Shown piece after piece: positions 1 through 32,269 of a DNA stretch of 32,269 nucleotides. The notes beneath the pieces were generated by a model, which saw nothing but the letters and a program-made list of their open reading frames with translations, was not told the origin of the DNA and did not search any database. The DNA is from Opitutia bacterium. Lineage in GTDB: Bacteria > Verrucomicrobiota > Verrucomicrobiia > Opitutales > UBA953. Location of the stretch: NCBI GenBank assembly GCA_021204635.1, contig JAJPZB010000192.1:1191-33459 (forward strand), read 5' to 3'. Numbering within the stretch: position 1 is the stretch's first letter; each line of letters starts with the position of its first letter. The position numbers and the translations under genes were made by a program.

Positions 1-185
1 TTCCTTGGCGCCGAAAAACAAAAGGCCCACCCCTACCCCAATTGCAAACGGCTTCGCTCCCTTACCCCCCCCCCATTTTCAAATGTCAACAACTCTTTTC
101 ACAAAAAGTTTCCCGCCACAATGGCACTCTTGCCCACCACCAACCCAAACTTCCGCAACAAAGCCAAGTGCCACGAAAAGTTGCC

Positions 186-283
186 CGCGCGTTTCTCGCG
201 CGAAAAATAGCTTCACACTCCCTCACCGCTATCGCGGTCCCCTCCCTCTAACTTAGAGGGAGAATCGCGCATTACATGCGCGA
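186..283. repeat. Cluster of four consecutive hairpins
   Basis: CGCGCG-TTTCT-CGCGCG (186-202); ACCGC-TATC-GCGGT (225-238); CTCCCTC-TAACTTA-GAGGGAG (242-262); TCGCGCAT-TAC-ATGCGCGA (265-283). Confidence 0.8.
214..265 (+). repeat. Structured palindromic element, copy 1
   Basis: Aligns ungapped to 32089-32140 at 45/52 positions, with two compensatory pair changes. Confidence 0.85.
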
Positions 284-16455: not shown

Positions 16456-17142
16456 ATGGCGACTTATTTTCGATACGGGGAAAAGGAAATCGCCTACCTG
16501 AAACGCGCGGACGCGAGATTGTCTTACGCCATCGACAAGATTGGCAAAGTGAGGCGGCAAGTCATTCCCGACCTCTTTGCCGCGCTCGTCCACTCGATTG
16601 TCGGGCAACAAATCACCACCAAGGCGCACGAGACAATTTGGAAGAGAATGCAAGCGGGGATTGCGGCGATAACGCCGGCAACAATGAGCGCGCTCGCGCC
16701 GGAAGAGTTGCAAGGCTTCGGGATTTCGCTCAGGAAGGCGGGATACATCAGGGGCATCGCGCAAAAGGTAATCTCCGGTGAGTTCGACATCGCCGCACTA
16801 AATTCCATGAGCGATGACGAAGTCTGCGCGCAACTTTCAACATTAAAGGGGATTGGAGTTTGGAGCGCGGAAATGCTCATGATTTTTTCCATGCAACGCC
16901 CAAACGTTTTGAGCTTTGGCGACCTCGGGATCCTGCGTGGATTGCGAATGCTCTACCACCGTGGAAAAATTGACCACCAAGCGTTTGAAAAATATCGCAG
17001 GCGCTTTTCTCCTTATTGCAGTGTTGCAAGCCTCTATTTGTGGTCTGTGGCAGGGGGCGCAATCCCGGAATTAAAAGACCCCACCACCAACCCAAATTCT
17101 CACCACCAACCCGCCACCACTAACCCACCACCACTAACCTAA
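16456..17142 (+). CDS. alkA: DNA-3-methyladenine glycosylase II family (HhH-GPD)
   Basis: FAALVHSIVGQQITTKAHETIWKRM ... LSTLKGIGVWSAEMLMIFSMQRPNVLSFGDLGI HhH-GPD motif; start MATYFRYGEKEI; C-terminal ~20 aa encoded by the intergenic repeat. Confidence 0.9.
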   Translation: MATYFRYGEKEIAYLKRADARLSYAIDKIGKVRRQVIPDLFAALVHSIVGQQITTKAHETIWKRMQAGIAAITPATMSALAPEELQGFGISLRKAGYIRGIAQKVISGEFDIAALNSMSDDEVCAQLSTLKGIGVWSAEMLMIFSMQRPNVLSFGDLGILRGLRMLYHRGKIDHQAFEKYRRRFSPYCSVASLYLWSVAGGAIPELKDPTTNPNSHHQPATTNPPPLT

Positions 17143-17210
17143 TCTCACCACCAACCCTATTCCACCACCAACCCTATTTCACCACTGACCCAAAGCCCCA
17201 CCACCAACCC
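17081..17210 (+). repeat. Dense CACCACCAACCC array between alkA and ogt
   Basis: Exact 12-mers at 17082, 17101, 17146, 17163, 17199 plus CACTAACCC, CACTAACCT and CACTGACCC variants. Confidence 0.93.
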
Positions 17211-30231: not shown

Positions 30232-31899
30232 ATGAAAAAATTTATCCACGCCGCTGTTGTCGCAATTGCGTTGTCGCCGCTTCTCGCCGCCGGCGAAGAA
30301 ATTTCGCACTCTGTCGCGAAGGCGGAAATTTTCACAGACCGCGCAGTTTTGACGCGCACGGGCACGGCGAATTTGAAAGAGGGTAGAAACGAAATCGTGT
30401 TCGCGGGCATTCGAGACAATGTAGATCTGCGCTCGATCCGCGTCGGCGACATCATGCCCGCCGACGTCGAAGTGCTCGGCGTCTCGTGGGAGCGCCACGT
30501 CTCGACAACCGTAGATAACGCGAAAATTGCCGAGTTAGAATCAAAGCTTTCCGAACTCGGGAAGCAGCTGTTTGTCGCGGAAAACGAGCTCGCGGCAACA
30601 GAGAAACTGCTGTCGCGCGCAGGCGATTTTTCAAAACTTTTTTCCGAATCCGTAAACGCGAAAGCCTTTGAAAACAGTGACGACAAACCCGCGCCGGACT
30701 GGGCAACAAACTCGGAGCAGCTCCGCGCTGAGTTGCAAAAACTCGCCACCACAAAGGCGGAACTCGACAGCCGCGTGAAAAAAATCAAGCGCGAAATCGA
30801 ACCCGTCGCCACCGAGCTCAACAAGATTTACGGTGGTGGCAACGCAAGGCGCTCGCTGAGCCTCGTGCTCGCGATAAACGCAAAGCAAAGCGAGAGCGCT
30901 CCAGTCTCTGTGGCGTACACGACGCGCACGGTTTCCTGGGAACCAAGCTACGATTTAAGTCTCGGCAACGGTGGCGACAGCGATGCCGAATTTGCCTATC
31001 GCGGGACGATTCGCCAGAACACCGGCGAGGACTGGAAGGGCGTGGCGATAACGCTTTCGACGGCGCAACCACAAATCAGCGCGCGCCCGCCGCGAGCCAC
31101 CACCATCTCGCTCTCGGGCAGAAAACTCGATAATCCCGACGAACGCGAAATCGTCGAAGTCGCAGCCGACAAGCCCGTGCCCGCCACTCTCTCACTCGCG
31201 CGAGCGGACGCGGGCGACAACGATGCCGAGACTGCCGGTCGCGACAATGCCGATTTTTCCGACGTTCGTGGTCGCGGCGCCACCGTCACGTTTGTGGTGG
31301 CGGGCACCCACGACGTCCCCACGGGTTCGCGCGAGCACCAAGTCGAAATCGCGCAGGAAAAGCTCGCGGTGCAGGAAACGCGCCTCGAGGCGGCGCCACG
31401 GTTGCGGGGCGATGTCTATTGGCGCGCGGAGCTGAAAAACGACGACGCGCGACCGATTGTCGCGGGCAAGTTGCGGGTCTGTCGCGACACCGGGTTTATC
31501 GGCATCGCGCAGCGGGAATACGTTCCGGCTGGGGCGACATTCGCGATTTTCGCGGGCGCGGAAAGCGGTTTGTCGGCGTCGTGCGAGACGCTCGCGCCGT
31601 TCAAGGAATCGGGCTCGGGCAAGTTTTTCTCGGCTTCGGAAACGACGGTTGAGGGCGACATCTACAAGATCGCGAATCTCACCACCAACCCGCGCAAAGT
31701 CCGCGTCCGCTCGCAAATCAAAGTTTCCGAGATCGACGACGTCAAAATTTCCATTCTCGACAAGCAGGAGAAACACATTCCCGCAACAACGCCGGGCTAC
31801 GTTCTCGAAAAGGAAACAGGCATGGTTTATTGGGACATCGAAGTTCCTGCCACCGGCGAGAAAACCCTGATTCTCACCACAAAGACCGAGCGCAAATAA
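30232..31899 (+). CDS. DUF4139/DUF4140 (mucoidy inhibitor MuiA-like) protein, copy 2
   Basis: ORF 555 aa; signal peptide; KAEIFTDRAVLTRTGTANL; VSWEPSYDLSLGNGG...RQNTGEDWKGVAITLSTAQP core; 24 nt after copy 1. Confidence 0.87.
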   Translation: MKKFIHAAVVAIALSPLLAAGEEISHSVAKAEIFTDRAVLTRTGTANLKEGRNEIVFAGIRDNVDLRSIRVGDIMPADVEVLGVSWERHVSTTVDNAKIAELESKLSELGKQLFVAENELAATEKLLSRAGDFSKLFSESVNAKAFENSDDKPAPDWATNSEQLRAELQKLATTKAELDSRVKKIKREIEPVATELNKIYGGGNARRSLSLVLAINAKQSESAPVSVAYTTRTVSWEPSYDLSLGNGGDSDAEFAYRGTIRQNTGEDWKGVAITLSTAQPQISARPPRATTISLSGRKLDNPDEREIVEVAADKPVPATLSLARADAGDNDAETAGRDNADFSDVRGRGATVTFVVAGTHDVPTGSREHQVEIAQEKLAVQETRLEAAPRLRGDVYWRAELKNDDARPIVAGKLRVCRDTGFIGIAQREYVPAGATFAIFAGAESGLSASCETLAPFKESGSGKFFSASETTVEGDIYKIANLTTNPRKVRVRSQIKVSEIDDVKISILDKQEKHIPATTPGYVLEKETGMVYWDIEVPATGEKTLILTTKTERK

Positions 31900-31900
31900 T

Positions 31901-32060
31901 CCCACCACCATCCCAAATCTCACCACCAACCCAAACTCGCGGCGTATGGGTTGGTGGTGAAAGTCTGGTCAGTGGTGGGAGTTGGGTTAGTGGTGGTGGT
32001 TGGGTTGGTGGCAGGGCTTTTTTCGTAGGGGTTGGTGGTGAAGCTTTGGGTTGGTGGCGG
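31901..32060. repeat. Mixed-orientation CACCACCAACCC / GGGTTGGTGGTG cluster downstream of the DUF4139 pair
   Basis: Forward 12-mer at 31921; reverse 12-mers at 31948 and 32029; several one-base variants. Confidence 0.9.
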
Positions 32061-32088
32061 GGAGCAAAGTCAGGCGACGTTCAACCAA

Positions 32089-32140
32089 CACACACCCTCA
32101 CCACTAACGTGGTTCCCTCCCGCTAACTTAGCGGGAGAAT
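32089..32140 (+). repeat. Structured palindromic element, copy 2
   Basis: Hairpins ACCAC-TAAC-GTGGT (32100-32113) and CTCCCGC-TAACTTA-GCGGGAG (32117-32137); aligns to 214-265. Confidence 0.85.
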
Positions 32141-32201
32141 TACGTGTTTTCTAACCTCTCGCAACAAAGCCAACATTCCCGCCGCCGCTTAACCCAAGTC
32201 C

Positions 32202-32259
32202 CACCACCAACCCACCGCCACAGACCCAGATCTCACCACCAACACGCCACCACCAACCC
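32202..32259 (+). repeat. CACCACCAACCC repeats at the right edge
   Basis: Exact 12-mers at 32202-32213 and 32248-32259; variant at 32234. Confidence 0.9.
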
Positions 32260-32269
32260 ATTCCTCACC

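Follow-up and report, generated by a model that had tools for sequence, protein, structure and literature searches.

Palindromic repeats around a DUF559 gene in an Opitutia bacterium: putative ends of a mobile element with candidate counterparts in other bacteria

Introduction

Many bacterial genomes carry REP- or BoxC-like palindromes without a known enzyme (Di Nocera et al.), and for each such family the question arises of what copies it. A known pairing is that of REP/REPIN sequences with RAYT genes (REPtrons), in which short high-copy palindromes flank a dedicated transposase gene (PMC2817692, PMC3116915, PMC3733652). The question is raised here by a window of 32,269 nucleotides (the whole stretch of DNA analysed) from a draft genome of an Opitutia bacterium of the gut (Verrucomicrobiota; GenBank assembly GCA_021204635.1, contig JAJPZB010000192.1, positions 1,191 to 33,459, forward strand), which holds two copies of a 52-bp hairpin-rich element. 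What kind of element is this, and which gene, if any, is its partner?

Results

Two copies of a modular element

Positions 214-265 align without gaps to 32089-32140 with seven mismatches, as the preliminary description had claimed and as our realignment reproduced, these lying at 219 (T in copy 1, A in copy 2), 228 (G/A), 232 (T/A), 235 (C/T), 239 (C/T), 247 (T/G) and 257 (A/C). Four of the seven are indeed two paired stem changes, 228/235 in hairpin 1 and 247/257 in hairpin 2. The heptamer TAACTTA had been described as an unchanged loop; it is unchanged between the copies but is not a mere loop, being self-complementary, so that hairpin 2 forms a palindrome of 21 bp around a single central nucleotide, CTCCCNCTAA-C-TTAGNGGGAG. 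Copy 1 folds as three consecutive hairpins (z = -7.7 against shuffles), whilst copy 2 gives z = -2.3. Both copies lie downstream of genes, named by inspection as encoding ExbD (ending at 430) and a DUF4139-like protein (ending at 31899), and no clean empty site was found for either window copy, the host assembly being a fragmented draft. The parts of both copies are listed in Table 1.

Table 1. Parts of the two window copies and related insertions in restriction genes
Feature	Position or locus	Strand	Remark
Module b, 5' part of copy 1, GTTGCCCGCGCGTTTCTCGCGCGAAAAATAGCTT	180..213	+	9 of 73 classified copies are type b; contains hairpin CGCGCG-TTTCT-CGCGCG at 186-202
Copy 1 core: CACACTCCCTCACC - hairpin 1 - GGTCCC - hairpin 2 - AAT	214..265	+	
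Copy 1 hairpin 1, ACCGC-TATC-GCGGT	225..238	+	
Copy 1 hairpin 2, perfect palindrome CTCCCTCTAA-C-TTAGAGGGAG	242..262	+	
Copy 1 3' module B, third hairpin TCGCGCAT-TAC-ATGCGCGA	265..283	+	directly downstream of core
Copy 2 module a, TTTTTTCGTAGGGGTTGGTGGTG...GGGAGCAAAGTCAGGCGACGTTCAACCAA	32020..32088	+	63 of 73 classified copies are type a
Copy 2 core	32089..32140	+	
Copy 2 hairpin 1, ACCAC-TAAC-GTGGT	32100..32113	+	
Copy 2 hairpin 2, CTCCCGCTAA-C-TTAGCGGGAG	32117..32137	+	commonest form
Copy 2 3' module A (AATTACGTG...)	32138..32151	+	truncated
In-frame palindrome-DUF559-palindrome insertions in hsdR/hsdM, Verrucomicrobiota	L175, L200-L202, L204-L207, L210, L211, L174		

As a separate observation, degenerate tandem GGGTTGGTGGTG / CACCACCAACCC repeats fill intergenic DNA at 133-347, 17079-17210 and 31899-32269 of the window and genome-wide; tandem pairs number 335 in the host, and 11 relatives have none. 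The motif is similar to sequences that form two-tier G-quadruplexes and switches orientation at the hairpin elements.

A dispersed, high-copy family in the host genome

The host genome (G000; a 1.92-Mb draft in 195 contigs, 90% complete) contains the hairpin-2 pattern at 194 places (up to 3 mismatches) and the hairpin-1 pattern at 160, each against 0 for the reversed-pattern control, far more than chance would give. A large protein of the window has its nearest named relative in an Opitutales MAG (50% identity). These counts are inflated because many of the contigs end inside the element, which fragments the assembly, and the true copy number lies below them, at roughly 150-190 and perhaps 150. 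Both hairpins occur in the same arrangement in 71 of the 73 copies with enough flank, and the build is a mosaic: the core, shared by all, is preceded by a 5' module (a or b) and followed by a 3' module, either A or B, of which B carries the third hairpin, in places repeated in tandem arrays with ~200-bp spacing. The element is high-copy, intergenic and palindromic with a core within the 20-60 bp of REP sequences, and the likeness in scale to REP/MITE-type elements that had been noted from the two window copies thus extends to the dispersed, structured family as a whole. Its DNA found no match in the plasmid collection.

The T:A variant of hairpin 2 seen in copy 1 is rare, with three copies among those read. 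One divergent copy (L157:4523-4573; G000:C171:7325) combines hairpin 2 in this T:A form with a hairpin 1 like that of the sister species (ACCGACTTCGTCGGCGGT), and is possibly a relic of the ancestral family. The T:A form is probably the older one, since the sister species (see below) and the divergent copy share that state.

Covariation in the stems

Across 81 aligned cores the covariation exceeds that in shuffles and slid controls. Pair 14:21 of hairpin 1 is A:U, G:C or G:U in 31 of 33 distinct rows, pair 58:62 of the third hairpin is C:G in 18 and U:A in 16, and pair 33:43 of hairpin 2 shows one double change; other stem changes are mostly unpaired singletons. The covariation reported from the window is therefore real but thin, coming mainly from two biallelic pairs, that is, from a few old alleles spread through the family, and when non-compensatory stem changes are set against compensatory ones, the comparison proposed in the preliminary description, the two come out roughly level. 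The covariation had been read as implying selection on, or replication through, a folded form. Alone it does not imply this, since hairpin-templated repair or gene conversion gives the same pattern, and the chances are about even that the paired changes arose in just that way among copies of a neutral repeat: the biallelic pairs are few and occur in all combinations with the loop variant, and the palindrome is near-identical in most copies. Such an origin would concern the paired changes only; it is no alternative to mobility and is compatible with the nuclease-driven spread considered below.

Placement relative to genes

Gene calls made with a simple codon-usage caller trained on the window genes placed every copy in the host between genes and none inside one. 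Among 48 copies with a gene called on both sides, 23 lie between convergent, 14 between codirectional and 11 between divergent genes; where only one side could be called, 41 adjoin a 3' end and 8 a 5' end. This 3' bias, together with the covarying stems, is what a structured RNA, or a transcription terminator or mRNA stabiliser selected at gene 3' ends, might display. The bias is, however, accounted for by avoidance of promoters, no Rfam model matched the element, copies stand in both orientations, separate intrinsic terminators adjoin some of them (e.g. 362-401), and the family is missing from five of seven congeners. We rejected a terminator as the primary role on the last three of these grounds and regard the RNA reading as a whole as extremely improbable.

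Sister species and the search for a RAYT partner

A search of 57 genomes, those of the host and 56 relatives, found the element only in the host and in two congeners, G003 and G007. Its form there has diverged (CTCCCTCTTACTAAGAGGGAG), is arranged as inverted doublets of two units, and has as its regular state the T:A pair that is rare in the host. Several G003/G007 copies (L062, L067, L068, L070, L109) stand directly 3' of stop codons, and the ends of the genes preceding them resemble PEP-CTERM sorting signals (GLLAGVGALALVASRRRR).

A RAYT/TnpA-REP transposase had been suggested as the partner, and a REP/BIME family moved by such an IS200-like HUH enzyme, since lost or hidden in an assembly gap, would account for the size of the element, its intergenic placement and its REPIN-like inverted doublets in G003/G007; RAYT-like genes exist in sister species, and the host genome is 90% complete. 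The evidence nevertheless points elsewhere. No Y1_Tnp domain (PF01797) was found in the 90% complete host draft, and the RAYT-like genes of the congeners G003, G007 and G001 (L083:1438-2139, minus strand; L084:1023-1724, plus strand; L085:1409-2209, minus strand) failed as candidates, since each lies between palindromes of its own (GAACAGGCG... or GAAGCGGTT...) that are not related to the window element. Of the classic GTAG/CGTC tag, exact GTAG was seen at neither end of the palindromes on inspection of the 81 cores, and the gene that does lie between element copies encodes a DUF559 protein. A lost or hidden RAYT is thus very improbable, and the check for an associated gene yielded DUF559 in its stead.

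A DUF559 gene between inverted copies of the element

A cluster in G003 first showed a DUF559 reading frame between two element copies. Searching for the domain gave two matches in the host and two in G003, which belong to one frameshifted gene; G002 holds a fragment, and the remaining congeners gave no match. The host gene is intact (163 aa; PF04480, E = 2e-31, 108 bits against a cut-off of 20.6) and occurs on contigs C171 and C183 with inverted cores on both sides, module a at its 5' end and module b at its 3' end. From one flanking core across the gene to the other, the two contigs are 100% identical; adjoining repeat copies are 85-93% identical, and the sequence further out is unrelated, so the whole DUF559 unit has recently been copied to a second locus; alternatively, the two loci may stem from two strains merged in the draft assembly. 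The arrangement recurs in G003 around the frameshifted gene and with the diverged core of that species, and within the genus the flanked gene is confined to these two genomes.

Judged by their modules, window copy 2 (type a) corresponds to the 5'-side end of the gene and copy 1 (type b) to its 3'-side end, and the window elements very probably belong to this DUF559-associated repeat family.

DUF559 and palindromes in other bacteria

The pairing of DUF559 with palindromes recurs in Verrucomicrobiota, Proteobacteria, Cyanobacteria and Deinococcus. The host protein as query returned 38 records of the plasmid collection, from which 22 loci were fetched, and most of these have palindromes of the CCCTCACC...CCTCTCCC-loop-GGGAGAGG style within ~200 bp of the DUF559 gene; none were seen at several of the plasmid loci (Parageobacillus, Sutcliffiella, one Synechocystis). 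The two flanks of the gene are joined by an inverted repeat of 10 bp or more at 10 of 17 annotated plasmid DUF559 loci, compared with ~9% of 204 other coding sequences there (Fisher p about 2e-6). The repeats at the flanks occur many times over, at no fewer than 39 places in Sinorhizobium meliloti, 26 in Neisseria gonorrhoeae and at least 40 in Photobacterium; the sequence flanking DUF559 in Pseudanabaena is likewise multi-copy. Among 291 Verrucomicrobiota genomes, a stand-alone DUF559 gene is present in five of the eight with three or more CCTCTCCC-N-GGGAGAGG palindromes (the other three lack one) versus 7 of the 283 others. At three loci (L197, L230, L239) the C-terminal tails of DUF559 proteins, PSPSRLREG, NPSPEGEG and PSPVGEG, are read-through of the neighbouring repeat.

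Insertion can be followed within coding sequences. DUF559 frames in large Verrucomicrobiota proteins proved to be in-frame insertions in the type I restriction genes hsdR and hsdM (Table 1), with HSDR_N, SWI2_SNF2 or N6_Mtase Pfam domains around, or split by, the inserted DUF559 and with the bordering palindromes translated as PHPQPLSQGEKG / LPSTSGRGAGGEG; the inserted unit has the ends ACCCTCACCC...GGGTGAGGGT. At L175, alignment to an uninterrupted HsdM (PDB 3khk) places the 176-aa insert exactly between its residues 448 and 450, and a second, repeat-only insertion follows further along the same hsdM; hsdR is interrupted at other positions. Inverted repeats of at least 10 bp accompany 9 of 18 DUF559 domains in large proteins compared with all 11 stand-alone genes, a comparison in which the large proteins are a contaminated negative control because these in-frame insertions carry palindromes of like kind. 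Three Deinococcus species have the unit at three different junctions of a homologous hpa operon, and the hpaE-NADox junction interrupted by the unit in one species is a 4-bp overlap in another. The DUF559 unit thus inserts as a whole into new sites. The position of the gene relative to the repeat varies, lying between two doublets in Sinorhizobium and G003 and inside one doublet in the hsd genes.

The DUF559 gene of E. coli is ycjD, which about 3367 of 5426 genomes carry between sapF and fabI and which has a BoxC-like repeat on its downstream side. The median E. coli genome has this repeat at 16 places, and a K-12 MG1655 record has it at 19. In an even sample, uncorrected for phylogeny, the median was 20 places in genomes with a full-length best match (a proxy for ycjD) and 9 in the others, an association of repeat number with ycjD that is suggestive only. 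Strains lacking ycjD at fabI were considered as clean empty sites and rejected, an RND-efflux/TetR operon occupying the place.

The DUF559 protein and a proposed mechanism

The DUF559 profile matches the solved PDB structures 3hrl (E = 4e-38), the 'mobile intron protein' 3r3p (4e-7) and, weakly, Vsr 1cw0 (0.002), and residues D55, E66, D68, H72 and D81 are invariant in 16 sequences. Caulobacter VsrA, a DUF559/Vsr-like protein, reportedly accounts for the SOS response of cells that lack a cytosine methylase (PMC12907096), which fits nuclease activity in vivo.

We propose that the window elements are probably non-autonomous (solo) ends of a DUF559-REP mobile element. Its autonomous form would be a DUF559 endonuclease gene between two inverted element copies; the protein, a Vsr/EDxHD-type nuclease, would recognise the palindromic ends as a cruciform, triplex or single-stranded hairpin and nick or cut there, and repair would then copy one end, or the whole unit, into a new place or another repeat copy. 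That DUF559 drives the spread of the repeats is the reading towards which we lean; its catalysis of the movement and the folded state of its substrate are inferred.

The enzyme could instead be a homing-type parasite that cuts existing copies, its gene being copied in by homologous repair, whilst the repeats spread by other means. Such behaviour would suit its solved relatives, the closest of which include an EDxHD homing nuclease, and would fit several of the arrangements: both host DUF559 units sit inside pre-existing repeat arrays, the hsdM of L175 holds a repeat-only insertion beside its DUF559 unit, and G007 retains element copies without a DUF559 gene. It would, however, leave unexplained the enrichment of stand-alone DUF559 in palindrome-rich Verrucomicrobiota and names no other mover of the repeats, RAYT being absent from the host, and we consider it unlikely. 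DUF559-driven spread remains our preferred explanation.

Discussion

The window repeat has led to a candidate enzyme in DUF559, a family that is widespread and still bears the label of a domain of unknown function. If the proposal is right, a whole class of intergenic repeats gains an engine and DUF559 a role, and the idea can be tested in E. coli K-12. The wider generalisation, that bacterial REP-like and BoxC palindromes at large represent ends and solo descendants of a hitherto unrecognised class of mobile element, driven by DUF559 and independent of RAYT/HUH enzymes, with E. coli ycjD and BoxC as its laboratory example, may be right or wrong with equal probability. In the DUF559 literature, as judged from titles and the openings of abstracts and from a combined search for DUF559 and palindromic, with subscription papers and preprints outside this coverage, a link to palindromes is apparently undescribed.

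Among known systems, EDxHD homing endonucleases (I-Bth0305I type) and Vsr resemble DUF559 in their profile matches (3r3p, 1cw0) and in the conserved E-x-D-G-x-x-H...D; unlike the homing enzymes, DUF559 does not lie in an intron and is flanked by palindromes with many solo copies. RIME of Rhizobium/Sinorhizobium is, like the element described here, a multi-copy palindrome doublet, although of different sequence. In S. meliloti a doublet of RIME-like appearance, which we take to be RIME, lies on both sides of the DUF559 gene, and the literature searched gave no link of DUF559 to RIME.

BoxC, also called PIT or the intrastrand triplex motif (TM; PMC4666352), shares with the host element the C-rich CCCTCACC...CCTCTCCC-loop-GGGAGAGG layout and the intergenic placement, and the same kind of repeat adjoins ycjD in E. 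coli. The host element differs in having a hairpin between two C-rich blocks: the triplex-type blocks of copy 1 are CTCCC (218-222), CTCCC (242-246) and GGGAG (258-262), and hairpin 1 intervenes. Holder et al. (2015) reported that mobility genes were never found near TMECO sites, and their paper mentions neither ycjD nor an endonuclease (PMC4666352).

The comparison with REP/REPIN systems is divided. The enzyme is a DUF559 protein of the Vsr/EDxHD fold and not an HUH tyrosine transposase, and the GTAG tag is missing; yet here, as there, short high-copy intergenic palindromes, often in inverted doublets, surround one dedicated nuclease gene, and the non-autonomous copies outnumber the autonomous ones.
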